Below, one piece after another: positions 8,284 through 28,139 of a stretch of DNA of 42,109 bases. The stretch's first letter is position 1, and the number at the start of each line of letters is the position of its first letter. The position numbers and the translations under genes are program-made. The notes under the pieces were generated by a model. The model was not told the origin of the DNA. It saw nothing but the letters and a program-made list of their open reading frames with translations, and searched no databases. The DNA is from a virus: IMG/VR virus record IMGVR_UViG_3300035670_000482, positions 1 to 42,109 of that record; one strand, 5' to 3'.

Positions 8284-8313
8284 CTTAAATAACTTGATTT
8301 TAAAACTATATAG
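8284..8313 (-). promoter_or_regulatory. Late-type promoter: CTATATAG + TATA box
   Basis: Minus strand: CTATATAG (8306-8313), 13 nt, then TTATTTAAG (8284-8292), and the portal ATG at 8263 about 25 bp beyond the box. The palindrome itself encodes the last residue and stop of the terminase gene. Confidence 0.75.
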
Positions 8314-13034: not shown

Positions 13035-13232
13035 CTAATACTTCCTATCGTAATCTGGCATAGTTTTTGATATGTCGTAATGTCTTCCAGTCAATTCATG
13101 ATATTGTCTGGCTAATTCGTTTATTCTCTTTAAAGCCATATCTCTTTCTTTTCTATCAAAATTCCATTTATTATCAAGAATTAAAAGAGTTATTCTTTCT
13201 TCTAATTCAGAAGCTTTTTGAGTATCCGCCAT
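13035..13232 (-). CDS. Small helical protein at end of glycan operon
   Basis: 65 residues from the ATG at 13232, charged and helical (SELEERITLLILDNK, ERDMALKRINELARQYHEL). Overlaps the SDR gene 3' end by 26 bases. No family recognised. Last gene before the 12973 promoter. Confidence 0.5.
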   Translation of the reverse strand: MADTQKASELEERITLLILDNKWNFDRKERDMALKRINELARQYHELTGRHYDISKTMPDYDRKY

Positions 13233-13812
13233 CACAAGTTATTACTGCTCCATCAATAAAATTAGCTTTATTACTTATTAAATACTTAACTAAATTAGCC
13301 ACATCTTCTGGTTTGCCTATTGGGGCATTTACTTTATTTGCGTATCTCTTAATCTCTTTTTTTGTGTTAATATAGCCAGGACAAATCGTATTAAATGTTA
13401 TTCCTTTATACTTTCCAGCCAGACTTTTCATAAAAGCTATTTGTGCAGATTTAGATGCTGTGAAGTAAGGATTTGGCCCTTTCTCTTTTCCATATATGCT
13501 ACTTATAGTGATTACTCTACCGAACTTCCTTTTCTTTTTTAGAAATGCTCTGGTTAGTTTCATTGTTATACCATAGTTTTTCTTCATACAATCGTTTGCG
13601 TCTTCTGGTTTACAGGTGCCCATTCCACCTACATTATTAATTAAAATATCATAATTTTTCATACAATCTTCTGCACAAACAATATGCCCTAAATTCATTA
13701 AATCCCAGCCAGTTTCTAAACTCCAATCAGTAACTTTAATCTTTTGTTTTTCTAATTGCTTCTTAATGGCTAAACCAATTCCGTGTGAACCACCAGTAAT
13801 CACTGCACGCAT
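13207..13812 (-). CDS. Short-chain dehydrogenase/reductase, altered active site
   Basis: 201 residues. Classical SDR pattern: cofactor loop TGGSHGIG at 6-13, LINNVGG around 58-63, the SSIYG catalytic Ser strand at 104-108 and CPGYINT later. The usual YxxxK is changed: Lys121 is present in FTASK, but Phe117 occupies the Tyr site and a Tyr sits one residue earlier (116). It would act on a sugar or related intermediate if active. Coupled by overlap to the methyltransferase-like gene upstream. Confidence 0.85.
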   Translation of the reverse strand: MRAVITGGSHGIGLAIKKQLEKQKIKVTDWSLETGWDLMNLGHIVCAEDCMKNYDILINNVGGMGTCKPEDANDCMKKNYGITMKLTRAFLKKKRKFGRVITISSIYGKEKGPNPYFTASKSAQIAFMKSLAGKYKGITFNTICPGYINTKKEIKRYANKVNAPIGKPEDVANLVKYLISNKANFIDGAVITCDGGYSKSF

Positions 13813-14468
13813 CTTAATCCAAGAACCTCCAACTCTTTTTTACTTAGTCGTTTAGGTAAACAATAAAGTATGCCCCTATAAGTTAATCTTGGTTCTGACC
13901 ACGCATAGTTTAGATTATCTTGCATTACTGGGTCGTTTGTTTCTTCTGGCTTCATTATATCACAGCTTTCTAATCTATTTGTATAAAGATAGAATTTTGG
14001 ATTGACTTTTTTAAGTGGATTTTTTAGAATATTCATACCTAACCTAATACCATCATATCTACAATGGCCCAAACCATTATCAAAGTCGTGTATAATTATT
14101 ATTGCGTCTTTTCTACCTTTTAAACTCTTTAGTTCGTCTAATACTACAAACCTTTTGCTCTTTGGTAGTTTAGGATTATAGAAGTGTGCATCTAAGTAAA
14201 ACATTGGATTTTTAACATTCTTAAATCGTTTCAAGAACTCTGGGCTATGTTGTTTAGCTAAAGTTATATTGCCATATTTATATAATCGTTCAATACTCTC
14301 ATTGAAATAATCTTCAACTATCTCGCAAGTATAAACCCAGTTAAATGTCTTTGCGTGAAGTTCGGCATTTATTCCTTTGAATGTACCAGTTTCTATAAGT
14401 ACTACTGACTTTAATTTATCTCTTAAATAGTTAATTACTTCTATGCTTTGTTTGTCTGTCCAACTAAT
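13800..14468 (-). CDS. Class I methyltransferase-like protein with ATT start
   Basis: 222 residues if begun at ATT 14468; the first ATG in frame is at 14234 and would delete the cofactor-binding part. The ATT follows GGAGGT with seven bases between. The frame upstream of that ATG reads VVLIETGTFKG, then VYTCEIVEDYF, YLDAHFYN near residue 95 and a strand IIIIHDFDN, an arrangement resembling SAM methyltransferases of surface-sugar clusters. It overlaps the nucleotidylyltransferase 3' end by 28 bases. Substrate unknown. Confidence 0.65.
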   Translation of the reverse strand: MSWTDKQSIEVINYLRDKLKSVVLIETGTFKGINAELHAKTFNWVYTCEIVEDYFNESIERLYKYGNITLAKQHSPEFLKRFKNVKNPMFYLDAHFYNPKLPKSKRFVVLDELKSLKGRKDAIIIIHDFDNGLGHCRYDGIRLGMNILKNPLKKVNPKFYLYTNRLESCDIMKPEETNDPVMQDNLNYAWSEPRLTYRGILYCLPKRLSKKELEVLGLRCVQ

Positions 14469-14890
14469 GTTTTATACCTCCCGATTAAATCACTGCTTGA
14501 TTGTATTTTTTTGCCTAATCCATCTACTATTTCTATGTTTAATTTTTTACATGTTTGAGCTTCGGGTATTTCTCCTTTGTGTCTATCTCCACCTTTTGCG
14601 AAGAATAATCTATTTTTTGGATATAATTTTCTTATGTATTCTAATGTTTTACATACGCTTTTATCATTGTCTATGCTTAAATATACATTATCTATTAATC
14701 TAATTTCCTTTAAAATGATTAATCTTTCTTGTTCGTTCATGAAAGAATAACCTTTTTTTAGTTTTGCTTGTTGGTCGTTATTTAGAATAGCAATCATAAA
14801 ATCGCCTAATTGACTGGCTTTCTCAAAGTATTCTATATGCCCTGAGTGAATTGGGTCAAAGTATCCGCTTACTATTACAATAGTTGACAT
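14441..14890 (-). CDS. Nucleotidylyltransferase, cytidylyltransferase type
   Basis: 149 residues. The nucleotide-binding signature GYFDPIHSGHIEYFEKA is near the start (HxGH = HSGH), with NEQERLIIL and a C-terminal SSSDLIGRYK. This family activates small sugar or polyol phosphates as CDP or ADP conjugates. A second such enzyme lies at 22636, so two different precursors or two steps are likely. Substrate cannot be told from sequence. Confidence 0.85.
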   Translation of the reverse strand: MSTIVIVSGYFDPIHSGHIEYFEKASQLGDFMIAILNNDQQAKLKKGYSFMNEQERLIILKEIRLIDNVYLSIDNDKSVCKTLEYIRKLYPKNRLFFAKGGDRHKGEIPEAQTCKKLNIEIVDGLGKKIQSSSDLIGRYKTLVGQTNKA

Positions 14891-15924
14891 ATTTTTTTAG
14901 CCGAGTTATCCCATGTAAATTCTTGGGCAGTTTTAATTGCTTTTAAACCCTTTTGTTTGATTAATTGAGGGTTTGAATATATTTCTCGCATTACTTTCCT
15001 TAATTCTATAATACTCGGTGTTAGCCAACTAATTCCTTCATATTCTAATTCGTGCTTTATCTCAGTCATCTGTCCACCTATTAGCCAGCCATTCTCATCA
15101 TTAACAAAATCTGTTTGTCCGCCGAAATTAGTTGTTAAAACTGGTAATCCACAAGCCATCGCTTCTAAACAAGGAATATTAAACGCTTCTGCTCTTGTTG
15201 GGCTTAAAAATACATTTCCTTTATTATAAAATTCTACTAACTTATTTTGTGGTACTAAATCAAAACTGAATGTTAGTTTAGGAACTCCGGATTTTTTGTC
15301 TGTTAGTTCGGTTATTAATTTAGTTATATCTGGAACTCCATAAACCGGATTTACTTTAATAATTAATTCTACATCGTCTTTATCAGTAAACTCTTCAAAG
15401 TATGCCTTAATTGCATATTGTATTCCGCCCCTATCTTCATTATTTCTCCATCCTTTGTTGCATAAGAAAGTAACTTTGCTTGGCTTTTCTTTTGGATAAA
15501 ATAAATTTAAATCTACTCCATGAGGCACTATGATTAATTTTGATAATATACTATTATCCATAATAACACATTTAGCAACAGCATCATAGGTATGCTTACT
15601 TGGTACAATTATTTTCTCTATTTGAGGGTTTAGCATTTCTTCTATCATATAATCCGGCACTTTATCGCCTTCCCATACACAATAAGCCCAGTTTCTTTTA
15701 CCTAAGTTTAATCTCCAAAATAGTGGGTGTGTTACTATTAAATTAATATCACCGCCTTTTCGTTTAAGCATTTCTAACTCTCTATCGTTTAAGAGTTTCT
15801 CTGCACCGGGATTTATTTGGCTTGTTAATTTGATTGGTTCTATTTTATCAAGAGCGTTGGCTAAACCTTTTGTATGGTTTCCGTATCCGTTTGGTGTTAT
15901 TATATCCCCGATTAAGTTTATCAC
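14875..15924 (-). CDS. Glycosyltransferase, GT4 family
   Basis: 349 residues, GT-B fold. The C-terminal half carries the EX7E motif in AEAFNIPCLEAMACGLPVL and the FVNDENGWL segment. The N-terminal domain includes IVPSKHTYDAV and VPHGVDLNLFYP. It would use a nucleotide-sugar donor on a growing glycan. Four-base ATGA overlap with the GT2 gene upstream. Confidence 0.9.
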   Translation of the reverse strand: MINLIGDIITPNGYGNHTKGLANALDKIEPIKLTSQINPGAEKLLNDRELEMLKRKGGDINLIVTHPLFWRLNLGKRNWAYCVWEGDKVPDYMIEEMLNPQIEKIIVPSKHTYDAVAKCVIMDNSILSKLIIVPHGVDLNLFYPKEKPSKVTFLCNKGWRNNEDRGGIQYAIKAYFEEFTDKDDVELIIKVNPVYGVPDITKLITELTDKKSGVPKLTFSFDLVPQNKLVEFYNKGNVFLSPTRAEAFNIPCLEAMACGLPVLTTNFGGQTDFVNDENGWLIGGQMTEIKHELEYEGISWLTPSIIELRKVMREIYSNPQLIKQKGLKAIKTAQEFTWDNSAKKICQLL

Positions 15925-16778
15925 CTCATTATTAAGTTATTAGCCTTTTTAAGTTCTAATTCACTTACCTCCCCTTTGAATATCTCTTTGAGCTTATCTT
16001 TATTTTCTATTGTGAATTCTTCTAAAATCTTTTGATTAAATGGAACCATATTCATAGTATTTCGTTCTCCACCGCTTGGTGTTGCTAAATGATGATTTAC
16101 TGCGAATGTATTTACTCCGATTTTAAAGCCATTTAATAACGCTTTGTAACTGAATATCTGTTCTTCTCTAAATCCATTCATACTCAATCTTGTTGGATAA
16201 TATTTTACTTTTTCGTGTACTTCTTTCTTAATTAAGGCACAACTACGAAAATGATGAGCTGGTAAAATTAGTTTTTGAGTATAAGGCATTCCACAATCAT
16301 CAAAGTTGCACTTATATGAACCATCTTCGTTTAGTATTACTCTATTGACTATTCCGTTTAAGTGAACTGGGTTTCGTTTGAAAGTCGGTCCAAATGGGAT
16401 TGTTACTCCACTCGCAATATCATAACCTTCTTTAATTACTTCAAAAAGCTGTTCTATATAATCTGGTTCTAAAATGCAGTCATCATCAACTCGAATATAA
16501 TAATCATAGTCTTTCGCCCAATCTACAATCTCTTGTCTGGCTCTACTTACGCCTAAACAAAAATCAGTTCTTTTAACAAATACTTTATGGTTTTCAAGCA
16601 TTATTCTAACTAATAAAGAATTAAAGAAATGATAAGAGTTTAAAGGTGTTCCGCCAAAATCATCTAAAATAAATATATCAAAATCCTGATAAGTTTGAGT
16701 TCTAAGACTTTGTAGTAATAAACATAATTCTGTTGGCCTGTCTTTAGTATTAATTAAAACTGCTACTTTATTCCCCAT
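15921..16778 (-). CDS. Glycosyltransferase, GT2 family
   Basis: 285 residues, GT-A fold. Opening VAVLINTKDRPTELCLLLQSL is the family start, then DIFILDDFGG and the metal-binding acidic motif YYIRVDDDCILEPDYI. A later part includes FRSCALIKKEV. It would add a sugar from a nucleotide-sugar donor. Overlaps its neighbours by a few bases, inside one operon. Confidence 0.9.
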   Translation of the reverse strand: MGNKVAVLINTKDRPTELCLLLQSLRTQTYQDFDIFILDDFGGTPLNSYHFFNSLLVRIMLENHKVFVKRTDFCLGVSRARQEIVDWAKDYDYYIRVDDDCILEPDYIEQLFEVIKEGYDIASGVTIPFGPTFKRNPVHLNGIVNRVILNEDGSYKCNFDDCGMPYTQKLILPAHHFRSCALIKKEVHEKVKYYPTRLSMNGFREEQIFSYKALLNGFKIGVNTFAVNHHLATPSGGERNTMNMVPFNQKILEEFTIENKDKLKEIFKGEVSELELKKANNLIMR

Positions 16779-17434
16779 TTGTTTCTGAAATATTTTCCAG
16801 CCTCCTTTTTAGCTTTCTCGTTTTCTTCAAAGTTTTGAGTATCGTGTAGTCTTTCGTTTGACATATGGTGTTCAACCCAGTAATCTAATTTAAATATATG
16901 TAATCCTGCATTTAAAATCGCATAAGTTAAATCTATATCTACGCCCCAACCTTTTGGGTAATTCTCATCAAAGCCACCGACTTTCTGTATTGCTCTATTT
17001 GTTATGTAAGAACACCAACCACCAATCCATTTAAATCCATCTAAATAATCTGGTCCGCTTATTCCTCCGTAGTTAATTGTAACAACCGCACCTATTCGTT
17101 CGTCTTTTGCTATTTCTATCATTTCGTTTAGCCAATCTCTTTTATATAATTTGAAAAAGGTTACATCTGTTTGAATTAATAATAAATCCTCTCCTCTCTC
17201 TTTAGCTATTTGAAATAATTGATTATATGCCTTTAATGGTCCTTCTCGTTTTGTGTGTATTACTTCTATTTTTGGATTTTTGGCTAACTCGTCGCAGTAT
17301 TCTTTTGTTCCATCTGTGCTTTCGCTCTCTATAATCACAATTTTATAATCTGCTTGGGTAGAGTTCATAAAAGTAGAAATAGCATTCCTAAACGCTTCTA
17401 AATCGTTATGAACAGGGCATCCAATTATTACCAT
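16763..17434 (-). CDS. Glycosyltransferase, GT2 family
   Basis: 223 residues. Start VIIGCPVHNDLEAFRNAISTF, then VIIESESTDGTKEYCDELA are typical GT2 signatures. The usual DxD region reads LLIQTDVTFF, so only one of the two Asp is evident. A later GGFDENYPKGWGVDIDLTY gives the acceptor-side acidic residues. Likely a sugar transferase of the same glycan. Confidence 0.85.
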   Translation of the reverse strand: MVIIGCPVHNDLEAFRNAISTFMNSTQADYKIVIIESESTDGTKEYCDELAKNPKIEVIHTKREGPLKAYNQLFQIAKERGEDLLLIQTDVTFFKLYKRDWLNEMIEIAKDERIGAVVTINYGGISGPDYLDGFKWIGGWCSYITNRAIQKVGGFDENYPKGWGVDIDLTYAILNAGLHIFKLDYWVEHHMSNERLHDTQNFEENEKAKKEAGKYFRNKWGIK

Positions 17435-18234
17435 ATCTCTTTTATCCCCTCATTTAGTTCTATCATAGTTAAATAGTTAATTAAATGTAAGTTATTAGGC
17501 ATAAACTTTTTACTTGGTCCTGTTGGTTTAGTTATATCATATTTAATTGGTTTGTTAGATAATTTACTTAAAATATCTGCGACTTCGCTTATCTTGTTTG
17601 TTTTTCCACTTGTGGCGTTTATTGGTTCGTTTGGCATCTGTTTCATAGTTTCAATCATTATTCTGGCTACATCTCTTGCGTGTATAAAATCTCGTTCTTG
17701 TGTTCCATCGCCCCATACTTCTATTTGTTCATCTTCTTTTGCTTTCTTTAATAAATTACTTATAACCATTCTTTCGCCTTCTAAACTTTCTTTTCCATAA
17801 ACATTTGCTGGTCTGACTATACAGAATTTAGTTTCAGTGCCTTGTATTTGAATTGCTTTAATTAAATGTTCGGCTGTTTGTTTAGCCCAAGCAGGATAAA
17901 AATCACTTTCTGGAAATAATACTGCGATGCTACTTGTATAAAGGAATTTCTTTACTTTACATTCTTGACTTGCTCTAATCATATTTGTATCGCCTTGTAG
18001 CATAGGTATCATAAATTCGGCTGGTTTTTCTTTTGTTCGTTTAGGAGAACCTTTAATCCCGAAAACATGGTAAACTTCGTCCATTCCTTGACAATACTTT
18101 AAGCAAGTCTTATAATCTGTTATGTCATCGCCATTCTTTAAATCTAAAATAAATACTTCGTTGTCTTTTTCTAAAAGTTTTACTAACTCTGTCCCGATTA
18201 AGCCCTCTCCACCCGTGACTAAAATTTTAGACAT
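17428..18234 (-). CDS. NAD-dependent epimerase/dehydratase, extended SDR
   Basis: 268 residues. Cofactor loop VTGGEGLIG at 6-14, a YTSSIAV strand near 99-105, VRPANVYG and GDGTQERDFIHARDVA. The expected YxxxK reads PAWAK: Pro114 lies at the Tyr site, with Tyr113 one position earlier and Lys118 present. The family makes or interconverts nucleotide sugars. Coupled by overlap to the dehydratase-like gene upstream. Confidence 0.85.
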   Translation of the reverse strand: MSKILVTGGEGLIGTELVKLLEKDNEVFILDLKNGDDITDYKTCLKYCQGMDEVYHVFGIKGSPKRTKEKPAEFMIPMLQGDTNMIRASQECKVKKFLYTSSIAVLFPESDFYPAWAKQTAEHLIKAIQIQGTETKFCIVRPANVYGKESLEGERMVISNLLKKAKEDEQIEVWGDGTQERDFIHARDVARIMIETMKQMPNEPINATSGKTNKISEVADILSKLSNKPIKYDITKPTGPSKKFMPNNLHLINYLTMIELNEGIKEIW

Positions 18235-19201
18235 TTTCTCTCCAAAAGTTTAATAAATCTGTTAATGTTTTGACTAATGGTATTTCAGGTTTCCAGCCCA
18301 ATTCTTTAAACTTACTACAATCGGGTATTTGTAAGGTTACATCATAAGGTCTCATTAAATTAGGGTCTTGTTGTTTTATTATTTTATCTTTTGTGCTTAA
18401 ACTTATTAAAATATCCAGCATTTCACCTATTGAACAATGATAATCTCCACCTATATTATAGACTTCGCCCGGAATACCTTTCCTTGATAAGATATAATAT
18501 CCTTTTACTGCGTCTCTTACATCTGCAAATGTTCTAACTGAATTAAGATTTCCGTGTTTGACTATTGGCTCTTGTTTTCCTTTTTCTATTAAGGCTATTT
18601 GTCTGGCGAAATTAACTTCTGCACTTAACATTGTTCTCCTTGGTCCTGTATGCGTGAAAAACCTTGTTCTAATTGTTTTAAGTCCGTAGTTAGTATAATA
18701 CATTAAAGCTAACATATCCTCAGCAACTTTACTTACTGCGTATGGGTTAGACGGATTAAATCTACAAGTTTCTTTAATTGGTATTAAATCTTCGGTTACT
18801 AAGCCATAAACTTCACTGCTTGAACATACGTGAATAATTGGGTCATATCCATCTTTCCTATTTATTCGGATTGCTTCTAATAGATTGAGTGTTCCTTCTC
18901 CGTTTGTTCTAAATGTTTCAATAGGATATTCATAACTTGCATTTACATAACTTTGTGCTCCTAAATGAAATATATAATCTGGTTTAATTTTTTCTATTAC
19001 TCTTAAACAAGAAGATAAATCGTTTAAGTCCATTAAAACCCAATTGACTTTATCTTTTATGTGTTTGAAACTATCTTGGTTATCTGTCCATCTATAAGTT
19101 ATATAAACTTCTTCGCCTTTCTCTAATAAATAATCTGCTAAATGAGAAGCTACAAATCCCGGTCCCGTTATTAACGACCTAACCATATTTAATTTCTCCA
19201 T
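18227..19201 (-). CDS. Nucleotide-sugar dehydratase/epimerase, GDP-mannose dehydratase-like
   Basis: 324 residues. The C-terminal two-thirds match the family: FHLGAQSYVNASYEYP, SSSEVYG, the intact catalytic YAVSK, TRFFTHTGPRR and SVRTFADVRDAVKGY. This is the layout of GDP-mannose 4,6-dehydratase-like enzymes. The Gly-rich loop is unusual: TGPGFVASHL is one residue shorter than the common TGxxGFxG form and ends in Ala. An HNH gene overlaps its start; ATG at 19201 or at 19186 are both possible. Confidence 0.85.
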   Translation of the reverse strand: MEKLNMVRSLITGPGFVASHLADYLLEKGEEVYITYRWTDNQDSFKHIKDKVNWVLMDLNDLSSCLRVIEKIKPDYIFHLGAQSYVNASYEYPIETFRTNGEGTLNLLEAIRINRKDGYDPIIHVCSSSEVYGLVTEDLIPIKETCRFNPSNPYAVSKVAEDMLALMYYTNYGLKTIRTRFFTHTGPRRTMLSAEVNFARQIALIEKGKQEPIVKHGNLNSVRTFADVRDAVKGYYILSRKGIPGEVYNIGGDYHCSIGEMLDILISLSTKDKIIKQQDPNLMRPYDVTLQIPDCSKFKELGWKPEIPLVKTLTDLLNFWRENV

Positions 19202-19553
19202 AATGATTTATTGCATGACAATTGGCACATAATAGTTCTACTTTACTTAAATCAAAATCTAATTTAAACCAATCTCTTTTATATAATTTTTCGTCTTTAT
19301 GGTGTATTTGTAATGCTCTTGTATCTGTAAATCCACATCTTGAACATTTATTATTTAATAAATTATATATTTCAATAGTTCTTTTTTCTTGCCATAATCT
19401 GTTTAATTCATTATACCTCAATCTATTATCTTTTTTCCATTTTTTAGAATTATCTTTATATCTTTGTTTATTTTTTTGATAATTCTCTTTATTCTTCTTC
19501 AAAAACTTTTCACGATTTTTAATATAATACTCGTGTTTATTTTTTTTAATCAT
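19179..19553 (-). CDS. HNH homing endonuclease-like protein
   Basis: 124 residues from ATG 19553, which follows GGGAGAA and overlaps the preceding stop as ATGA. A long basic Lys/Asn/Tyr-rich N-terminal part is followed by a zinc/HNH unit: CSRCGF, LQIHHKDEK and LLCANCHAINH. Free-standing homing endonucleases have this look. It and the next HNH gene form a tandem pair inserted between the cupin and the dehydratase gene. Confidence 0.8.
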   Translation of the reverse strand: MIKKNKHEYYIKNREKFLKKNKENYQKNKQRYKDNSKKWKKDNRLRYNELNRLWQEKRTIEIYNLLNNKCSRCGFTDTRALQIHHKDEKLYKRDWFKLDFDLSKVELLCANCHAINHYGEIKYG

Positions 19554-20101
19554 TTTGTATTCTCCCTTGTCAAAATGTTCCATCTTGCTTTATCTACCTT
19601 ACAATGACAATCTAAACATAATGTAATGCCATTATTTATATCAAATCTCAATTCAGGATATTTTGCGAATGGCTTTATATGATGTACTTCTAATTTTCCT
19701 AATGCTCCACATTCTTGACAAGTAAAATCGTCTCTTTCTAAACATCTTTTTCTCCATAAGAAATTCTCTTTACTAACTCTTTGATATTTATTAATTAATG
19801 CAACCCCCCCATGCCAATTAGGATTATTCTTCCCTTGCATTCTAATAGAGTGATTTTTCTTCCATTCTTCAGAGTGTTTAATATTTCTCGGTTTTCTCAT
19901 ACTATTTGAAACTCTTTTCTTATATTCTGGATTACCCCATCTTTGTTTATTATTTTCAGATATTTTTGGAATTATTTTTCCTTTATTCTTTGATGGTCTA
20001 CCTTTTAGTGATTTAGATATATTCATTTTGTGGTTATCACTAAATTTTCTATTTTTTAATGCTTCTGATATTTTTTGTTTATGTTCTTCTGTAAATTTCA
20101 T
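19550..20101 (-). CDS. HNH homing endonuclease with NUMOD-type repeats
   Basis: 183 residues from ATG 20101 (ATGA overlap with the cupin stop). N-terminal NUMOD3-like DNA-binding repeats (FTEEHKQKISEALKNRKF, FSDNHKMNISKSLKGR), a NPNWHGG motif, then the HNH nuclease CQECGALGKLEVHHIKPF with LCLDCHCKV. Cuts DNA to spread its own gene. It interrupts the glycan operon without breaking a glycan gene. Confidence 0.85.
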   Translation of the reverse strand: MKFTEEHKQKISEALKNRKFSDNHKMNISKSLKGRPSKNKGKIIPKISENNKQRWGNPEYKKRVSNSMRKPRNIKHSEEWKKNHSIRMQGKNNPNWHGGVALINKYQRVSKENFLWRKRCLERDDFTCQECGALGKLEVHHIKPFAKYPELRFDINNGITLCLDCHCKVDKARWNILTRENTK

Positions 20102-20490
20102 ATTTTTGTTAATTCGCGAGGGCAATCATTATAATCTCCGCTTAAATAAGTAGCACCAGCTATATCCACTATAATTGAACCTTTACTAAACATTCCCCCG
20201 TGGATTATTCCAGCACTTCTAAACACAATATCTCCTTCGCCTAATTCAAATGTTTCTTTTTCGCCAGTAAAAACATTCTCCATAACATAATCCCAGACTT
20301 TGCCTTTCATTACATACATACATTCTTCGTACAAATGCCAATGCCCACTTTTACCACCTAAATAACTATCCTCTTTGACTTCTAATATCTTAATGTTTTT
20401 GCCATCGAATTGCCCGTTCATTAGTTCTACGAGTTTTCTTCTTTCGTCTTCATTGACTACATTAGCTTTACAAACTTTTACGCCTTTCAT
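20098..20490 (-). CDS. Cupin-fold sugar isomerase/epimerase-like protein
   Basis: 130 residues from ATG 20490, which sits five bases after GGAGG. A cupin signature is clear: GHWHLYEECMYVMKG gives the His/Glu metal ligands and SAGIIHGGMF the second motif. Cupins in sugar clusters are epimerases or isomerases, but this one is short and could also bind a ligand only. Neighbouring SDR and TPP enzymes suggest a role in making an unusual sugar. Confidence 0.75.
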   Translation of the reverse strand: MKGVKVCKANVVNEDERRKLVELMNGQFDGKNIKILEVKEDSYLGGKSGHWHLYEECMYVMKGKVWDYVMENVFTGEKETFELGEGDIVFRSAGIIHGGMFSKGSIIVDIAGATYLSGDYNDCPRELTKI

Positions 20491-20699
20491 ATTAACCTCC
20501 AAATTGCATAAGCTATAAGTCCTGTTATTGCAATAGCAAAAGAGATTACTGGGATTACAAAAGTAAATATTTCTCTCATCAAATCGGCTTGCCCCTCAAC
20601 ATATCCTTCAATATATTCACTGGATGGAAATTTCCAATTAGGGTTATACCATTTTGTTTTAATTATAAATGGTTTAATCTTTTTTTCTTTTGTTTTCAT
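20487..20699 (-). CDS. Small membrane protein
   Basis: 70 residues. Basic N-terminal half (MKTKEKKIKPFIIKTKWYNP) and one C-terminal transmembrane helix (TFVIPVISFAIAITGLIAYAIW). Start taken at ATG 20699 in a TAATG overlap; an ATG two codons upstream is also possible. Function unknown. Confidence 0.6.
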   Translation of the reverse strand: MKTKEKKIKPFIIKTKWYNPNWKFPSSEYIEGYVEGQADLMREIFTFVIPVISFAIAITGLIAYAIWRLI

Positions 20700-20890
20700 T
20701 ACCATGTTTGTTTATATAAATACCTCTTTCTACAATTTTTGCATGTAATTTTCTTTCCTCTCCAATTAGTTTTCTGGATAAGTTGTTCTGTTGATAAATC
20801 CCCAATTGCATGAATACAAGCATAATAAACTCCTTTTGGTGTTGCGTCTGCTTTGTGGACAATATTGGTTTTGAATTTTGTTTTTATCAT
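20699..20890 (-). CDS. Small zinc-knuckle protein
   Basis: 63 residues with ITCKNCRKRYLYKQTW at the end: one CxxC pair and basic residues, suggesting nucleic-acid or metal binding. Another Cys is in YYACIHAIG. No family recognised. Linked by TAATG overlap to the next gene. Confidence 0.55.
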   Translation of the reverse strand: MIKTKFKTNIVHKADATPKGVYYACIHAIGDLSTEQLIQKTNWRGKKITCKNCRKRYLYKQTW

Positions 20891-20895
20891 TTGGT

Positions 20896-21012
20896 TTACT
20901 CCTTAATATCTTGTATTAACCTATTTAATTTTTTTAATTCTACTAAAATAAGGGCAACTAATTCTGCAGTTGTATACTCCCCGCCCGGCAAATCTGGAAT
21001 ATTTATATTCAT
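20896..21012 (-). CDS. Very small protein, helical
   Basis: 38 residues, sequence opening MNINIPDLPGGEYTTAELVA followed by a charged helix. ATGA-type overlap with the stop of the nuclease gene upstream. Too short to assign. Confidence 0.5.
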   Translation of the reverse strand: MNINIPDLPGGEYTTAELVALILVELKKLNRLIQDIKE

Positions 21013-21488
21013 TCAAACTCCTCGAAGATTATTTCTTTGCCTTGTTTTTTTGCTATTAGTATCTTACTAAATATTTTATTTTCTAAAAGCCATTTACATT
21101 TTTCTTTTTCTATTTTGTCTAATCTTCCATTTATCTTACATTCAACCCCAAAAACAATATGTGTTAATTTAAAATGAAACATTTGGGTATAGTCATATCC
21201 ATCTTTTGGTTTTATTAAACTGCCTACATTTCTTGGGAGTATAAACTTATTTGCTTGTTCTAAGTCTTCATTAGCTATTACAATAAAATCTGGAAAACCA
21301 GAACCTTCTCCAACTATTCTCTTAAAGAATGGGTTATATTGTGCTTTTGCAGAAGTTAATTTATTATCTTTTACATTATTACACCATTTACTTACTATCC
21401 AGCCACAATTTTCAAGCATCTTTCTTACTGCTAATTCAAATTTTTTACCATTCGCTCTGTTTTTCTTTCCCTGTGTTTGTTTATTCAT
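21009..21488 (-). CDS. PD-(D/E)xK nuclease, resolvase-like (putative)
   Basis: 159 residues. N-terminal helix GKKFELAVRKMLENCGWIVSKW, then GSGFPDFIVIANED and VFGVECKINGRLDKIEKEK, giving the D...ExK spacing typical of PD-(D/E)xK nucleases such as archaeal Holliday junction resolvases and VRR-type enzymes. It may process replication or recombination intermediates, and is oddly placed inside the glycan operon. Confidence 0.7.
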   Translation of the reverse strand: MNKQTQGKKNRANGKKFELAVRKMLENCGWIVSKWCNNVKDNKLTSAKAQYNPFFKRIVGEGSGFPDFIVIANEDLEQANKFILPRNVGSLIKPKDGYDYTQMFHFKLTHIVFGVECKINGRLDKIEKEKCKWLLENKIFSKILIAKKQGKEIIFEEFE

Positions 21489-22030
21489 TTGAATACCCCT
21501 GTCGGTTTTTCTATTATTAAAGTACTTAATCCGTTTTTGGCTCTTTCAAACGCTTCTAAATAATTTAATTTAACTTCTTCTGGCGTTTTAGGGCTTAATA
21601 CTAAAATATGTTTGAGCATACTTTTCAATCCTCTTGTATAATCTCCGCAATGTTGTGCCCCCGGATATAATGGTTTTTTATTGCCTATTTGAGTTCTAAT
21701 TATTACACCCGGACAGAATTCCCCATTACTCATTTCTTCAACTTTATCTAAATGATTAACTAATTGGTTAGTCGCACAAATCAAAAAGTCAATTCTCGGA
21801 AATATACTCACTGGGATAAATCCGTTTAAAGCTAATCCAATACTCATACCTAATTGTGTATCTTCAAATACAGGCATTTCTTTCTTCTTGTTTGGCTTGA
21901 CTTTCTCTAAACTTTTGAACATTGGGCTACCGGGATATTCTGTTGTTTGCCCTAAAAATATAACTTCTTTGTTTTTACCAAGCATTTCCATACTCTCTTT
22001 AATTGATTTTTGATAATCACTTGAAGACAT
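21485..22030 (-). CDS. TPP enzyme, pyrimidine-binding subunit (E1 beta-like)
   Basis: 181 residues from ATG 22030, preceded by AGGTGAT. The motif FEDTQLGMSIGLALNGFIPVS matches the pyrimidine-binding domain of transketolase/E1 beta proteins, with Glu as the usual cofactor activator. A separate C-terminal transketolase domain is absent, so the protein is shorter than typical subunits. It pairs with the gene just upstream. Together they would move a two-carbon unit between sugars or keto acids. Confidence 0.8.
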   Translation of the reverse strand: MSSSDYQKSIKESMEMLGKNKEVIFLGQTTEYPGSPMFKSLEKVKPNKKKEMPVFEDTQLGMSIGLALNGFIPVSIFPRIDFLICATNQLVNHLDKVEEMSNGEFCPGVIIRTQIGNKKPLYPGAQHCGDYTRGLKSMLKHILVLSPKTPEEVKLNYLEAFERAKNGLSTLIIEKPTGVFK

Positions 22031-22652
22031 TGTAATCACCTTCTGTTTTTAGTTTATTTTGCAATTTGATAAATTCGCCTACCCCATAATGAGGATATTT
22101 TCTAACATATCTGTAATAGATTACTTTATCTGATTTATAATATAACTTATTGCCCCAGACTATTTCTGTTGGTGAATTACAGCCAAGCCCGTTATCTTCT
22201 ATTACAAAAATAATCGGCAAATCAAAGTTAATCGCATATTTTACTGCTTCATTGAAACAGCCCATCTCACTGGCCATATCTCCTACAAAGCAATATACTT
22301 TACTTTTTTGTTTCTTTAATTTGATTGAATAAGCTACTCCTAATGCTATTGGGATTATTCCTCCTACTATTGCACTTGTGAATATTTTATATTTTCTTGA
22401 ATTTATATGGCTTGAATTTGCTTTTTTAATTATTTCATTCATTAACCATTCTTTATCTTTACTTTTTAATAATGCGTGATAATGACTTCTATGTGTAGAG
22501 AATACCCAGTCATTTCTTTTTATGTCTTTGAATATTTTAATTAATTGTTCTTCGTTTCCACCCGATAAATGAACTGGTCCGTAAGTAAACCCTTTCTTAT
22601 ATTCAGTTACTACTTTTTCCTCAAACTTTATTAAATCATCCGCTTTCATCAT
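22017..22652 (-). CDS. TPP enzyme, cofactor-binding subunit (E1 alpha-like)
   Basis: 211 residues from ATG 22652. The TPP motif is GDMASEMGCFNEAV through FVIEDNGLG (GD followed about 27 residues later by an Asn pattern), with YGPVHLSGGNEE and FSTHRSHYHALL near the start, the latter typical of E1 alpha. It partners the next gene as the thiamine-binding half. Overlaps the nucleotidylyltransferase stop. Confidence 0.85.
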   Translation of the reverse strand: MMKADDLIKFEEKVVTEYKKGFTYGPVHLSGGNEEQLIKIFKDIKRNDWVFSTHRSHYHALLKSKDKEWLMNEIIKKANSSHINSRKYKIFTSAIVGGIIPIALGVAYSIKLKKQKSKVYCFVGDMASEMGCFNEAVKYAINFDLPIIFVIEDNGLGCNSPTEIVWGNKLYYKSDKVIYYRYVRKYPHYGVGEFIKLQNKLKTEGDYNVFK

Positions 22653-23142
22653 CAAAACACATCCTATAAACATCTTTATCACTTGCTATTAATCTACTTG
22701 AACTAAACCCTGGTAAATCGTCCATTAAGATTAATTCGCCATTCCATTCTTTTAGTATTTCGCCTTCTATTCCTTTATAACCAGCTTTACTCTTTAAATG
22801 TAAGTTTGGTTTAACTGCTCTTAAAAATTGTTCTGGTGTATCTTGAGTAAATAGAACTACCCCATTGACATCTCTTAATTTTCCGAGATTATATGCTCTT
22901 TGTATTTCATTATGTACTGGTGTTCTTCCTTTGAATTGTTTTATATAATCGTCTGAATTAATTCCAACTAATAGAATATCCGCATTTTGTTTAGCTAACT
23001 CAAAACCTTTTAAATGTCCGTAATGTAAAACATCGAAACAACCATTTGTTGTGGCTACTTTTCTATTTGGATAAGAAGCCCGGTATTTATCCATAAAGTT
23101 CTTTACTTCTTCTAAGTTCATATAACATCTTACTTCGTTCAT
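22636..23142 (-). CDS. Nucleotidylyltransferase, RfaE C-terminal-like
   Basis: 168 residues. TTNGCFDVLHYGHLKGFELAK has the HxGH signature (HYGH), followed by VGINSD and PGFSSSRLI, as in the nucleotidyl domain of heptose cytidylyl/adenylyltransferases. It would activate a sugar or polyol phosphate. ATGA overlap with the upstream gene. Second such enzyme in the cassette. Confidence 0.85.
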   Translation of the reverse strand: MNEVRCYMNLEEVKNFMDKYRASYPNRKVATTNGCFDVLHYGHLKGFELAKQNADILLVGINSDDYIKQFKGRTPVHNEIQRAYNLGKLRDVNGVVLFTQDTPEQFLRAVKPNLHLKSKAGYKGIEGEILKEWNGELILMDDLPGFSSSRLIASDKDVYRMCFDDESG

Positions 23143-23555
23143 AGTATTCCCTCAAAATTATAACCTTTAGTTCTACAAATATCTGCTGCCAAACAATCTG
23201 TTTTCAAGTCTATTCTTTCGCCTAATTCGTTACTTATAACATTCTTAGCTAAGTTTCTTACTCCGTTGACTGAATGCGTGAATTTTAATAAACTATCTTG
23301 TTCTGTTCCGCCTTGTCTTGCTTTAAATTCGTTCTGCCAGATTATCTCATTAGAAATAGCATTTACTTGAACTGCTCTTATAAATTGTCCGAAGTTTTTA
23401 ATTTTCTTTTCTTTTAATATCTCTGAAATATCACTTATTATTTCTTGGGCTTCCTTTTCATAGGCTTCTTTGTTTTCAGAGAGTTTTATTGATTTGAGTG
23501 TAACTATACTTAATCTATCTATTAACTCACTAATCGTCGGCAAGTATTTTCTCAT
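23139..23555 (-). CDS. Conserved hypothetical protein of sugar-cluster type
   Basis: 138 residues from the TAATG-overlap start at 23555 (an upstream start at 23588 is out of step with the neighbouring gene). Helical: LPTISELIDRLSIVTLKSIKL, and a C-terminal GYNFEGIL. Similar sequences appear beside glycosyltransferases in my memory of bacterial and viral sugar clusters, but I do not know a biochemical role. Inference from context only. Confidence 0.6.
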   Translation of the reverse strand: MRKYLPTISELIDRLSIVTLKSIKLSENKEAYEKEAQEIISDISEILKEKKIKNFGQFIRAVQVNAISNEIIWQNEFKARQGGTEQDSLLKFTHSVNGVRNLAKNVISNELGERIDLKTDCLAADICRTKGYNFEGIL

Positions 23556-23716
23556 TAAAATCCACCACTTATCGCAAAATAAATACATACAATTTCTAAA
23601 ACAAAGGCTATAAATGGGGTATAAGCATTATATTCTCTTGTTTCTCCGTGTTTTACAATATTAATTATAACTCCTAAAATTCCTAACATTATAATTGTAA
23701 AAAACCACCAGTTCAT
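23555..23716 (-). CDS. Small membrane protein, two helices
   Basis: 53 residues: helix 1 (FFTIIMLGILGVIINIV), a polar loop (KHGETREYNAYT), helix 2 (PFIAFVLEIVCIYFAI). Overlaps both neighbours by the ATGA/TAATG pattern, which supports it as a real gene. Role unknown. Confidence 0.6.
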   Translation of the reverse strand: MNWWFFTIIMLGILGVIINIVKHGETREYNAYTPFIAFVLEIVCIYFAISGGF

Positions 23717-23850
23717 CTTATTCTCCCGTATATATCTTTTAATCTAAGTAAATCATTTAATTCATCCTTCAAAGTGTTTAAACATTCAAATTCAAATTCT
23801 TCGTTTATTAAAATTCTCCATTTTCCGTCATACATTCTTATTGAAATCAT
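23713..23850 (-). CDS. Small hypothetical protein
   Basis: 45 residues: a strand region (ISIRMYDGKWRILINEEF) and a helix (LNTLKDELNDLLRLKDIYG). ATGA overlaps at both ends. No family recognised. Confidence 0.55.
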   Translation of the reverse strand: MISIRMYDGKWRILINEEFEFECLNTLKDELNDLLRLKDIYGRIR

Positions 23851-25109
23851 TTGCCTACACCTACTATAATTTGATTAGAAAATAGCCAGTTTGGAGTTTG
23901 TTTTATTTCCATTATTTCACCTAATTTTTTAAGCCACCATTCTTTGTTCTTGAAAATCTTATGGGTTTTATCTTTGTATAAGTTTTCATCGCCTTCGAAT
24001 GGAATGCTTACTATATAATAGGTGTTGGGGTTTTTAAAGTTTATTAATACTTTATCTAATTCTTGCTCAGTTAAATGCTCTAATACATCAATCATTAAAA
24101 TAATATCTTCTCCGTTTGCTTCGTGGTCTAAAATATTACCTTGCTGAATATTCATTTGATAAGGGTTTGTTTGACAGGCATATTTGCTTAATTCTATTCC
24201 TTTATAATTGACTTCATCTTTAATCGGAAAGCCATAAACACCGAACCCACACCCTAAATCTAATACTCTTGGCTTGTAATCTCTTGGGCATTCTACATAT
24301 TCATAAAATCCGTTTAGCCATTGTCGGCTCATTATAAAGTGTTTAATCTCTAATTGTCTATTTTGAAAATAAAATAAATCTTTATCTACTCCGAAATGAT
24401 TTAATATCGTTTCAGGAATATCAATAGGATTTACTTGGCTTTTAGGATAAGTTCCGAACAAATGAGAATAATACCAGTTCATTAAATAAGCCGGAGTATG
24501 CATATTAGATTTAGCTAAATGGTTTTCGTATTTCTTTTTAAATTCAAATAGATTAGGTATATAAGATAAGTGCCAGATAGTCGTTGCTTTGGTTTGATAT
24601 TGTTTGTTTAAATCTTTTGGAATTAAAACTGGGTGTTCTACTTCTGGGTATTTGTCTGCTTCGCTTATCTTGAATAATCTATTTAATACATAATGTTCTT
24701 TGTTTGTAGCGTCTTCGTGCCCTAAATCCCCTATAAAATGCCTCATAGAAACGCTATAAACCCCTTCTGGTGCGTTATTTACGAAGTTTCGTAGTTTATC
24801 ATAGTCTTCTACCACCTCATCAGCATCAAGGCATAAAACCCAGTCATTAGGGTAATTTGTTTTTAAATAGTTTAAATAAAAGTTTCTGGTAATACCATTT
24901 TGTCTTTTATCTTCCTTATTATATTTCAAACTAATTAATTCAAATTTATTTGGATATTTTAATTTCCATTCTTTGTATTTTTCCATTGTTTTATTATCTT
25001 CTTCCCCCCAACAAAAAACAATCTTTTCAGAATTTAATACAGAACTAAAACACATATCTAAAAAGTTACTACAATTATCACCCATAACACAAGTAATTAA
25101 TTGTTGCAT
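23847..25109 (-). CDS. Glycosyltransferase GT2-methyltransferase fusion
   Basis: 420 residues. N-terminal GT-A domain with LITCVMGDNCSNFLDMC and the acidic DWVLCLDADEVVEDYD; C-terminal class I SAM methyltransferase from about residue 285 with RVLDLGCGFGVYG (motif I), YKGIELSKYA and MIDVLEHLTEQEL. One chain would transfer a sugar and methylate the product or substrate. It ends at a small-protein gene by ATGA overlap. Confidence 0.85.
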   Translation of the reverse strand: MQQLITCVMGDNCSNFLDMCFSSVLNSEKIVFCWGEEDNKTMEKYKEWKLKYPNKFELISLKYNKEDKRQNGITRNFYLNYLKTNYPNDWVLCLDADEVVEDYDKLRNFVNNAPEGVYSVSMRHFIGDLGHEDATNKEHYVLNRLFKISEADKYPEVEHPVLIPKDLNKQYQTKATTIWHLSYIPNLFEFKKKYENHLAKSNMHTPAYLMNWYYSHLFGTYPKSQVNPIDIPETILNHFGVDKDLFYFQNRQLEIKHFIMSRQWLNGFYEYVECPRDYKPRVLDLGCGFGVYGFPIKDEVNYKGIELSKYACQTNPYQMNIQQGNILDHEANGEDIILMIDVLEHLTEQELDKVLINFKNPNTYYIVSIPFEGDENLYKDKTHKIFKNKEWWLKKLGEIMEIKQTPNWLFSNQIIVGVGK

Positions 25110-25732
25110 ATTGTCTCCTTAATAGTGTTAACGCACTTTACAACATCTGCTTTTATCTCATGCTCCCAAAATCTTAATATCCTCCAACCAGAAACTTTTA
25201 GATAAGTATTTTTCGCTTTATCCTTTTTCTTTATGTCTTCTCTATTGTGCCAATAGTCTCCATCACATTCAACAATTAATTTACATTCTGGGATAGCAAA
25301 ATCACAAACAAATCTTCCAAATGGAAATGGGTGTTTAAATAAAATTCCTTGGGCAATCATTTCCTTTTCCATCATTCTTTCAATTATGGTATTTGTCTGG
25401 GGGAATAATCCATTTAAATGCTGTTTAATAGTGTTTTTTCTAATCTTTTCTTTAGTTTTATCAGATACTATTCTATTCTTTGCAGCCCTACTAAGATTTT
25501 CTCTATGTGTTTTAGTGAATATCTTATTTCTATAATGTTCTTTGCTTATCTCCGAATGTTTAAATCCAATGAGAGGATTATTTTTTCTTCTGTTAGTATG
25601 ATAACAATTCATAGAACAAAACCTTGCCTTGTTTATTCTTTTAAAAGTAACATAGAAACCTTTGCTACATTCCTCACAGAAGTTTTCTCCACCCGTACAT
25701 CTACTTGGTCTTTTTCTTTTCAATTTTTCCAT
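25097..25732 (-). CDS. Homing endonuclease, Vsr/EDxHD-like
   Basis: 211 residues. N-terminal Cys pairs (CEECSKG, FCSMNCYH), NUMOD-like repeats (GFKHSEISKEHYRNKIF, RENLSRAAKNRI) and a C-terminal very-short-patch-like nuclease domain: FVCDFAIPECKLIVECDGDYWHN, then WRILRFWEHEI. Free-standing homing endonucleases of phages use this fold. It overlaps the radical SAM gene by 13 bases at its start and the fusion gene by 13 bases at its end, so it sits cleanly at a gene junction. Confidence 0.8.
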   Translation of the reverse strand: MEKLKRKRPSRCTGGENFCEECSKGFYVTFKRINKARFCSMNCYHTNRRKNNPLIGFKHSEISKEHYRNKIFTKTHRENLSRAAKNRIVSDKTKEKIRKNTIKQHLNGLFPQTNTIIERMMEKEMIAQGILFKHPFPFGRFVCDFAIPECKLIVECDGDYWHNREDIKKKDKAKNTYLKVSGWRILRFWEHEIKADVVKCVNTIKETICNN

Positions 25733-26898
25733 GTTGCCCTCGCTTCTTTTACTAAATCTTCTATTCTTTTAGATGTTAGATGCTCTGTATCTATAACACA
25801 TCTTGCGGTTTTACCTGCTTCTAAATATTTTGTATAATCTTTGTCTTTTATTTTAATACCATATTTATCTGGATTGTTCCAAATCGGTGTTCCCGGAAAT
25901 GGTGTCAAATAATAAAAGTCTGCTTGTTTTAATCCCCACTTGCTTAAATCTTGTGCTAATCTTATCGTTCTTCTGGCGGTTACTTCACTTTCACCCGGCA
26001 AACCAATTATAAAAAATCCTTTTACAGGTATTCCCCAATTATGAGCCATCTCAACTGCATTGATATTATCATAAACATTCATTTTCTTATTGCTTCTGGC
26101 TAATATCTCGTCATCTCCGCTTTCTATACCCATGCTTAAACATTCACATCCGTTATTAGCCAATATATTTATTTTGTCTTTGTCTATTAGATTTGCTCTT
26201 GTTGTGCATCTAAAAGGTAAATCTATTTCCCTACAAAAATCTGTTATTTCTTTCATTCTTTCTCGGTCGAGAGTAAATACATCATCAAGAAAATAAACTG
26301 ATTTGAATTTTCCTTTTAATGTATTTAATTGTTTTTTAACTTCACCCATATCATAATTTCTTACTTTTCTTGATAGATTAAAGCAAAATGCACAATTATA
26401 TGGGCATCCCCTACTTGTTAAGATAGTTCCTTGTTGCCCCGCTATACCATACCTACTTAAATCCAAATCTGTCTTTAAAGTTAATTTATCTAAACTTACT
26501 GGTGGTGCGTGTATTAAACCATTATGGCTTAATGCTATGTTAAATCCTTGTTCGCCTTCTCCACAAACTACACTATCAAAATGGTCTGTTAAACTTAAAG
26601 GCATTGCACTCGCATGATAACCACCTACAATGGTTTTTGTTTTACCTCTAAATGCTTTTCCGTATGCTACTGCTTCTGGATAAATCGCACTCGTATAACA
26701 ACTAACTCCTACTGCGTCTGGTTTGTCTTTATGAAATTGCCTCATTAAGTCTAAATCGCTTTCGTGGTTCATATCCCATATTTTTACTTTATATCCTCTG
26801 TTTTTCATATATTCAGAAATACTACACAATCCAAGAGGTATTCTATCACCTGCGTTGTCTAAAATTCTTCTCTCGTTTGGGTTTATTAAGTAGAGCAT
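25720..26898 (-). CDS. B12-binding radical SAM protein
   Basis: 392 residues. N-terminal Rossmann-like B12 domain (VKIWDMNHESDLDLM, VGVSCYTSAIYPEAV, TIVGGYHASAMP), then the radical SAM core with CxxxCxxC in SRGCPYNCAFCFNLS, the FLDDVFTLD segment and GIESGDDEIL. Members do methylations and other hard radical chemistry on sugars, lipids and cofactors. In this cassette it may modify a glycan carbon. Overlaps its neighbours. Confidence 0.85.
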   Translation of the reverse strand: MLYLINPNERRILDNAGDRIPLGLCSISEYMKNRGYKVKIWDMNHESDLDLMRQFHKDKPDAVGVSCYTSAIYPEAVAYGKAFRGKTKTIVGGYHASAMPLSLTDHFDSVVCGEGEQGFNIALSHNGLIHAPPVSLDKLTLKTDLDLSRYGIAGQQGTILTSRGCPYNCAFCFNLSRKVRNYDMGEVKKQLNTLKGKFKSVYFLDDVFTLDRERMKEITDFCREIDLPFRCTTRANLIDKDKINILANNGCECLSMGIESGDDEILARSNKKMNVYDNINAVEMAHNWGIPVKGFFIIGLPGESEVTARRTIRLAQDLSKWGLKQADFYYLTPFPGTPIWNNPDKYGIKIKDKDYTKYLEAGKTARCVIDTEHLTSKRIEDLVKEARATWKN

Positions 26899-28139
26899 AG
26901 TTCATTAAATAGATTTTCAAATTGCTGTGCTACTTTCTGAAAGTCATATTTTTCTGTTACTGCTTTAATTCCGTTTTCGCCCATTACTTTTCTAATCTCT
27001 GGATTATTAGCCAGAAATACTATCTTATTCGCAGCATCAGTTATTTCACATAAGCCCCTTTCTACTTCCCAACTGCCCATTAAAGTACCATTTATAATCT
27101 TTAAATCGTATTCCTTTGAGTTCATTATGAAAAAGTCTTTATAATTTACTTCTTCGCAACCTGCTAATTTTATACCTAATCCTGCTTGGTTCTCCTCAAC
27201 TAATTCTGGCGTAGTAGTATATTGTGTTGCTAAAACAGGTACTCCACATTTCATTGCCTCTATTATTGGAATACCAAAACCTTCTCCACTTGTAGATAAA
27301 AAGAATATATCCATTAAATTATAAACATCGTTCATTTCTGCTTGTCCGAACCCTTCATGACATCGCATTCCAGAAAAAAATACTCTATTCTCTAAATTAT
27401 ATCTCTGTATCATTTTACCCATATTGAAAGTCTGTCCAGCTGGGTCGTTAGGGTCTAAGTGTAAAAATAAAACTGCGTTTGGTATTTTGTCTTTCATTAA
27501 GGCAAAACTCTTAAAAGTTCTGTCTAACATTTTTCTTGGCTGATTTCGTGCAACTACTCCAACAACAAATTTGTCCGTTAAACCCCATTTGGCTCTTAAT
27601 CTATTTCGTTCTTCTTCGCTTAATTTTCTGAATAGGTTTATGTTTAATCCGTGTGGAATATGCCTTACATTTAAATTGTGATAATCTTTAACTTGTTTCT
27701 GTCCGAATTTAGCCATAGCCACTGGACAATCTACTTTCTTTAATATTTGTTCGCAGTTATTCGGTAACCCGTTTCCTCCGTCTGATGGAAACCAAAACAC
27801 ACTTTTAGCCGGGCTTAAATCTATTTCTAATAATCTTGGATAAAGCATAAAGGTATCTAACAGAATAAATAAAATATCTGTTTTAGTTTTCTTTAAATGT
27901 TCGGACAGAGTATTCATAAAATAAGAGTGTATCATTTCGCCATAGACTTTAAAGTTTATTTTTGTTCCATCAAACAATTCAGCATTTTTTATTGTCATTC
28001 CATTATAAGCATTGCCCAGAAAATGCACCTCGTATCCTCTCTCTGTTAAGTATTGAGCCAACATCAAACTTTGGTTCCTATACCCAGTTGGAATAAAACA
28101 ACTATCAGATAAAATAGTAATAACTTTAGGTGTAGGCAT
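26886..28139 (-). CDS. Glycosyltransferase, GT4 family
   Basis: 417 residues from ATG 28139, downstream of GAGGAGA. GT-B fold with the EX7E motif in GEGFGIPIIEAMKCGVPVLAT, VVGVVARNQPRKMLD in the linker and IPHGLNINLFRKLS. The N-terminal domain opens KVITILSDSCFIPTGY. It is the first large gene of the glycan operon, after the AbrB-like gene, which it overlaps by 14 bases. Confidence 0.9.
   Translation of the reverse strand: MPTPKVITILSDSCFIPTGYRNQSLMLAQYLTERGYEVHFLGNAYNGMTIKNAELFDGTKINFKVYGEMIHSYFMNTLSEHLKKTKTDILFILLDTFMLYPRLLEIDLSPAKSVFWFPSDGGNGLPNNCEQILKKVDCPVAMAKFGQKQVKDYHNLNVRHIPHGLNINLFRKLSEEERNRLRAKWGLTDKFVVGVVARNQPRKMLDRTFKSFALMKDKIPNAVLFLHLDPNDPAGQTFNMGKMIQRYNLENRVFFSGMRCHEGFGQAEMNDVYNLMDIFFLSTSGEGFGIPIIEAMKCGVPVLATQYTTTPELVEENQAGLGIKLAGCEEVNYKDFFIMNSKEYDLKIINGTLMGSWEVERGLCEITDAANKIVFLANNPEIRKVMGENGIKAVTEKYDFQKVAQQFENLFNELCST

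Follow-up and report, generated by a model that had tools for sequence, protein, structure and literature searches.

The window analysed here is the whole 42,109-nucleotide viral record IMGVR_UViG_3300035670_000482 of IMG/VR, and the subject of this work is a locus for sugar synthesis and transfer at positions 13207–28181. Identical 127-nt repeats at both ends of the window indicate a complete molecule, a 41,982-bp genome of a tailed virus. Its genes for an HK97-type capsid protein, protease, portal, terminase and tail are present, apparently on the minus strand throughout, and the locus lies between the packaging genes and the half of the genome that is filled by small genes. An initial annotation had proposed a virus-coded glycan synthesis cassette at 13035–28139, with overlapping genes on one strand. 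Every gene in 13035–28181 is indeed encoded on the minus strand, most overlap their neighbours by a few bases, and domain assignments together with conservation across a virus family back the designation as a virus-coded cassette. The borders had to be shifted: the sugar genes extend to 28181, and 13035–13235 is occupied by a small open reading frame (ORF) unrelated to them. The proposal that the cassette fills over a third of the genome holds for its span (14,975 bp, 36%), but the sugar and transfer genes themselves account for 12,229 bp (29%), because HNH/NUMOD3 homing-type genes, a nuclease-like ORF and two tiny ORFs interrupt the cassette. An assembly chimera is ruled out by the end repeats and by the recurrence of the locus in 13 further viral records, which originate from many datasets.

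The proteins of the window were assigned by Pfam and NCBIfam searches and the virion genes by PHROG (Table 1). Sixteen genes belong to the locus, 15 of which are recognizable as encoding sugar-synthesis enzymes, glycosyltransferases (GTs) or methyltransferases. The enzymes named initially were recovered: two GT4 and two GT2 enzymes, a GT2-methyltransferase fusion (GT2-MT), two CTP_transf_like nucleotidylyltransferases, three enzymes with short-chain dehydrogenase/reductase (SDR) fold, a thiamine pyrophosphate (TPP) enzyme split into PP and Pyr chains, a Cupin_2 protein and a B12-binding radical S-adenosylmethionine (SAM) protein. For the ORF at 13800, listed initially as a methyltransferase, no Pfam model matches, but its AlphaFold (AF2) model has a class I SAM methyltransferase fold.

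Table 1. Genes of the sugar locus, interrupting genes and two virion marker genes (window positions).
Feature	Position	Strand	Basis
GT4b, outer glycosyltransferase (GT-B, family 4)	26886..28181	-	Pfam Glycos_transf_1 2.5e-19
B12-binding radical SAM enzyme, variable interior	25720..26898	-	Pfam B12-binding 6.5e-16 and Radical_SAM 5.1e-23
Inserted NUMOD3-like homing endonuclease, Vsr/DUF559-like C-terminal end	25097..25732	-	Sequence reading
GT2-MT fusion, conserved core	23847..25109	-	Methyltransf_12 3.2e-6 and weak GT2
c149, all-helical protein, type-A interior	23139..23588	-	Weak DUF4254 0.0038
CTP2 nucleotidylyltransferase, RfaE-domain-II-like	22636..23142	-	TIGR02199 1e-29, under cut-off
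TPP enzyme, PP (E1-alpha-like) chain	22017..22682	-	E1_dh 1.3e-20; PDB match pyruvate dehydrogenase (PDH) E1 alpha
TPP enzyme, Pyr (E1-beta-like) chain	21485..22039	-	Profile match PDH E1 beta 2.7e-17; Transket_pyr only
Nuclease-like ORF, outside pathway	21009..21488	-	No Pfam match; related ORF outside cassette on contig of a metagenome-assembled genome (MAG)
Cupin, putative sugar isomerase/epimerase, type-A interior	20098..20502	-	Cupin_2 6e-4; 8/8 type-A genomes
Two inserted HNH/NUMOD3 homing-type genes	19179..20125	-	HNH 4.9e-5 and 1.4e-8, NUMOD3
Nucleotide-sugar 4,6-dehydratase, predicted GDP-heptose type	18227..19201	-	Closest match 7us5, 6.8e-79
SDR2, GDP-fucose-synthase-like 4-ketoreductase or epimerase	17428..18234	-	Epimerase 7.9e-36; GDP-fucose synthase 1.7e-25, under cut-off
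GT2b glycosyltransferase	16763..17434	-	Glycos_transf_2 5.7e-13
GT2a glycosyltransferase, conserved core	15921..16778	-	Glycos_transf_2 4.3e-14; 14 viral genomes, mean identity 53%
GT4a, outer glycosyltransferase	14875..15924	-	Glycos_transf_1 2e-13
CTP1 nucleotidylyltransferase	14441..14890	-	CTP_transf_like 7.3e-14; TIGR02199 1.9e-16, under cut-off
Class I SAM methyltransferase (predicted fold)	13800..14468	-	AF2 pLDDT 86; Foldseek 1.9e-7 to SAM methyltransferases
SDR1, classical short-chain reductase	13207..13812	-	adh_short 1.4e-22
Terminase large subunit (TerL)	8306..9643	-	PHROG 2, 7.6e-37
HK97-fold major capsid protein (MCP), defines the virus family	3378..4229	-	PHROG 10, 1.3e-19

The main point of this analysis was missed in the initial annotation: the outer GTs of the locus are constant in a family of viruses, and the sugar genes between them are exchanged as a module. 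Relatives were gathered by IMG/VR scans with the terminase, the dehydratase, a TPP subunit, c149 and an MCP alignment, and whole records were read. The family is defined by the MCP, for which IMG/VR holds at least 358 relatives. We compared 14 long records (the window, G001–G005 and G008–G015), which have both the virion genes and the locus in common. The shared layout consists of GT4b, GT2-MT, variable sugar enzymes with GT2b, then GT2a and GT4a, and this bracket is about 9–18 kb long where measurable. Contig ends limit the counts, as the record of G014 stops before GT4b and that of G002 before the MCP; wherever the record of a relative extends far enough, GT4b opens the locus. The mean pairwise identity is 55% for GT4b (13 viral genomes and one MAG contig) and 46% for GT2-MT (14 viral genomes), and the conservation of the core GTs equals that of the virion proteins. 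In one count, GT4a is present in all nine long MCP-positive records, as compared with none of eight long records which have a related terminase without the window-type MCP. In a second, partly overlapping count, restricted to loci whose sequence extends 5 kb or more upstream of TerL, GT4a was found in 3/3 MCP-positive loci versus 1/19 without MCP, and the sole positive among the latter is short and may belong to the MCP-defined family. The GTs are on the same strand as the portal gene in 10 of 13 relatives, and the cassette is generally located 1–5 kb upstream of TerL. Replication genes vary within the family: a family B polymerase and ThyX were seen in G002, a family B-like polymerase (by eye) in G003 and a bacterial Pol III alpha in G004.

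The interior of the locus exists in at least two chemotypes. Type A (the window, G001–G004, G008, G009 and G011) has the TPP pair, the cupin and the dehydratase. Type B (G005, G010 and G012–G015) is devoid of these and contains, varying by genome, radical SAM enzymes, a HAD-CTP fusion, an aminotransferase or a UDP-glucose-dehydrogenase-like enzyme. On a virion tree computed from MCP, portal and tail tube, at least three changes of chemotype are needed on well-supported branches. The deep split {G002,G003,G004} has 100/100 support in the virion-gene tree as well as in the GT4a+GT4b tree, so that the outer GTs follow the virion genes, but it is rejected by the dehydratase+TPP tree (approximately unbiased test, p=1.3e-4). 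In the GT2a and GT2-MT trees, G008/G009 join G002–G004; their placement with G000/G010, as found for the virion genes, is rejected in both cases (p=5e-6 and 7e-7 respectively). Chemotype A as a single clade is rejected by the portal gene (p=6e-7). The GT2b tree sorts exactly by chemotype, with one label change, 100/99 support and none of 500 shuffles as low. We read these conflicts as indicating that the ends of the locus have been inherited with the virus, that the middle has been exchanged between distant members of the family, and that GT2b travels with the middle. As its tree sorts by chemotype, GT2b probably transfers the sugar made by the interior. The pair of SDR1 and methyltransferase genes lies about 25 kb from the GT bracket in G008 and G009, indicating that these two genes move separately.

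Constant flanks around an exchangeable interior are also the hallmark of O-antigen and capsule loci. The window locus works like these but is not a member of the group, as components of lipid-linked assembly and export were not found in the cassettes scanned. We consider as new the fixed frame around a middle that can be exchanged, the occurrence of this arrangement in all examined family records of sufficient length, and the combination of enzymes. No homologues of GT2a and c149 were detected in 50,697 phage records, where matches to GT2-MT were weak and partial. Cellular copies of the TPP gene were not found in 84,980 genomes scanned with the window protein alone, a single-protein scan which detects close relatives only. 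No publication describing the locus was found in the open literature searched, which lacks most subscription papers.

The predicted chemistry starts from the dehydratase, which is far closer to the GDP-heptose 4,6-dehydratase 7us5 of Campylobacter jejuni than to the hexose enzyme GMD 1db3 (8.4e-35). It shows an SDR fold with the catalytic Ser/Thr-Glu, the CSSSEVYG motif in common with 7us5, and a YAVSK motif. It thus has the sequence features of a GDP-heptose 4,6-dehydratase, and this is its predicted activity. CTP1 and CTP2 both have the heptose-1-phosphate adenylyltransferase domain as their best match, although under cut-off. G004 has an extra GHMP kinase beside one nucleotidylyltransferase. 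The TPP motif and the catalytic Glu are retained in the alignment of the two TPP chains (221 and 184 residues), which are fused into one protein in cyanophages; a split pair related to that of the window is encoded by the 735-kb uncultured phage LR756501 (L116:18388-20606). In antibiotic pathways, known two-chain TPP enzymes attach a two-carbon (C2) branch to keto sugars (PMC4425429, PMC4753412, PMC12247030), and among those AviB1/AviB2 and Pau11/Pau12 resemble the window pair in that two E1-like chains accompany a pathway that yields a 4-keto sugar (PMC4425429, PMC12247030). The 6-deoxy-heptose capsule loci of C. jejuni have a related 4,6-dehydratase, and their serotypes arise from mixing epimerases and reductases (PMC10680097); they differ in being cellular, and no TPP branching step is noted there. 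We infer that the cassette makes a 4,6-dehydrated sugar, probably of heptose type and possibly C2-branched.

With respect to the target, we somewhat favour a virus-borne modular glycan locus which decorates the virus particle. From the genes we infer a virion protein as acceptor, as well as the donor sugar, its C2 branching, the specificity of GT2b and the benefit to the virus. The 4,6-dehydratase would produce a GDP-(6-deoxy-)4-keto sugar, most likely a heptose, and the two-chain TPP enzyme would add a two-carbon branch to the ketone in the manner of AviB1/AviB2. The cupin, the SDRs, the B12-radical SAM enzyme and the methyltransferases would finish the sugar, which GT2b would transfer, the remainder of a short oligosaccharide being built by GT4a, GT4b, GT2a and GT2-MT. 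Since all enzymes look soluble and lipid-linked export machinery is lacking, the glycan is likely to be built on a capsid or tail protein within the cytoplasm while virions are being assembled. A changeable virion surface could alter adsorption or hide the particle.

The initial annotation had left the choice between glycosylation of the virion and re-coating of the host surface, and the former fits better. In the cassettes scanned, hydropathy analysis revealed no transmembrane enzyme, so that lipid-linked export is not encoded, and hydropathy and Pfam searches of these cassettes did not reveal an initiating transferase, a flippase or ABC exporter, or a polymerase or ligase, the components expected for lipid-linked O-antigen synthesis. 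The GT genes are located in or beside the virion module, as in phages that glycosylate their virions, except in G002–G004. In isolated phages, distant GT homologues are flanked by capsid and neck genes (Pontimonas), are flanked by the tail terminator and tape measure genes (an Arthrobacter phage), or directly precede the terminase together with an epimerase and a nucleotidyltransferase (a Tetrasphaera phage). Mycobacteriophage GTs put glycans on the C-termini of capsid and tail-tube proteins, according to work cited in PMC12619734. We prefer virion glycosylation because of this precedent, the homologues in virion modules, the position on the portal strand near TerL, the outer GTs that track the virion genes, and the negative searches for export machinery in the cassettes and for enzymes that make a hydroxylated DNA base.

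Several observations weigh against this interpretation. The isolated-phage GT homologues are only about 24–28% identical to the window proteins, and in G002–G004 the cassette is on the strand opposite to the portal gene, so that coupling to late transcription is not universal. MCP alone (p=0.10) and GT4a or GT4b alone (p ~0.2) do not reject a type-A clade; the conflict is therefore carried by the portal gene, the concatenated virion tree and the interior genes. Heptose and hexose donors are inseparable by sequence, and since the window shows no recognizable kinase or isomerase acting on a heptose precursor, the host would have to supply the substrate. The 184-residue Pyr chain does not have the transketolase C-terminal domain of the known branching enzymes (Pau11/Pau12 have 325 and 345 residues), and the pair is therefore considered to work like a two-chain branching enzyme (alphaKADH2) without being a member of this group. 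Finally, similar large clusters of cyanophages are usually read as host-lipopolysaccharide (LPS) genes.

According to the principal alternative, the enzymes alter a host surface glycan (LPS, capsule, S-layer or teichoic acid) and thereby change the receptor to exclude rival viruses; the viral GTs would extend lipid-linked intermediates of the host, and host machinery would export the product. The gene content resembles that of O-antigen and capsule loci, including the constant outer genes and variable middle, 24 presumed LPS genes are present in P-SSM2 (PMC2984593), and related TPP and dehydratase genes occur within cyanophage clusters. We nevertheless regard host re-coating as rather unlikely, given that no cassette scanned encodes a membrane-bound enzyme, flippase, polymerase or ligase, that the outer GTs track the virion genes and that weak GT homologues reside within virion modules. 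Moreover, remodelling of the host pays best in lysogens, and no integrase was recognized in the window.

Attachment of the glycan to viral DNA, as hypermodified bases protecting against restriction, appears improbable. DNA-glycosylating phage GTs are well known, and genes for a C5-cytosine methylase and a ParB-methyltransferase occur in some genomes of the family, but a TET/JBP dioxygenase (PF12851) was found in none of the 14 genomes and no thymidylate-synthase-type match (PF00303) exceeded the cut-off. This leaves no known route to a hydroxylated base, and the gene set is far richer than such systems need. Production of a free glycoside or of a signalling or antibiotic-like small molecule would agree with the two-chain TPP branching enzymes typical of antibiotic sugar pathways (PMC12247030). 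We hold it to be very improbable, as genes for making an aglycone, for resistance or for export were not recognized and the five GTs are conserved like virion genes.

Among known viral systems, the LPS-type clusters of the cyanophages P-SSM2, S-SM2, P-TIM68 and Bellamy are similar operons of ~15–20 kb with GTs, epimerases, nucleotidylyltransferases, a TPP enzyme (38–44% identity, fused there) and a dehydratase (47%). However, they make up ~10% of genomes of ~190–205 kb, which are 4–5 times larger, as compared with 29% of 42 kb here, and the window family is unrelated to cyanophages and has the fixed GT frame with swapped interior. Virion glycosylation in actinobacteriophages relies on few GTs, and the donor sugars are mostly made by the host. 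The window locus differs in having its own predicted donor-sugar pathway and exchangeable chemotypes. In mycobacteriophages and other actinobacteriophages, capsid and tail-tube proteins are the targets of phage-coded GTs and methyltransferases, according to work cited in PMC12619734 and PMC13313380. Tetrasphaera phage TJE1 and Pontimonas phage phiPsal1 have a GT4 and a methyltransferase (and an epimerase and nucleotidyltransferase) beside terminase or capsid genes, but these cassettes comprise only three to five genes, with GTs of 25–28% identity to those of the window. Chloroviruses and mimiviruses make nucleotide sugars and GTs for their own virion glycans (PMC9614988); these are giant viruses of eukaryotes.

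Sugar genes of phages are usually interpreted one at a time, either as host mimicry or as auxiliary metabolic genes. With a modular locus that is vertically anchored and present throughout a family, the question of coat serotypes in phages becomes directly testable, and a changeable virion glycan would bear on adsorption and on the recognition of virus particles by hosts and grazers. The two-chain TPP enzyme and the heptose-type dehydratase suggest new branched sugars and new enzymes. A tentative extension, which we advance as a possibility, is that small tailed viruses of a widespread family, possibly with DPANN archaea as hosts, have a true virion serotype system in which a fixed GT frame and interchangeable modules, including some for branched heptose-type sugars that are not known from viruses, diversify the coat by module exchange.

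The only cellular record matched closely by the MCP alignment is a Ca. Pacearchaeota MAG, in which the MCP and the GT bracket are located on contigs C14 and C11. No host genes were recognized on these contigs, and in 371 genomes of the phylum of this MAG and 200 of its order only distant MCPs, but no close ones, were found. The link may be due to mis-binning. Six tRNA genes are located at one end of a virus contig in this MAG, and the tRNA block matches nothing else there. Terminase similarity points weakly to Bacteroidota phages (49%), that of the MCP weakly to an archaeal virus (29%).

Some genes of the cassette deserve further description. The start of the methyltransferase is an ATT codon at 14468 behind a strong GGGAGG, resulting in 222 rather than 144 residues; its homologues start with ATG and carry MSWTD or MVWID at that point. 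Protein c149 has 54–64% identity in relatives, and its AF2 model (pLDDT 82) has no fold match in PDB. The B12-radical SAM protein is similar to PhpK, HpnJ and AprD4, under cut-offs, and may be of the C-/P-methylation or dehydration type. The inserted NUMOD3-like gene next to it has no counterpart at the equivalent position in relatives.

Outside the cassette, the palindrome CTATATAG is found at 1612, 5569, 8306, 28337 and 36922, mostly intergenic and sometimes upstream of genes, and is a possible regulatory motif of the virus. The ParB-methyltransferase ORF contains ten consecutive ATG codons (ten Met) at 11040–11069, possibly a slippage or phase-variation tract. A small ORF at 31976–32308, with relatives in G004 and G010, consists largely of C-S-x tripeptide repeats from a 9-nt tandem array (32063–32243), and its product is possibly a metal-binding or surface protein.

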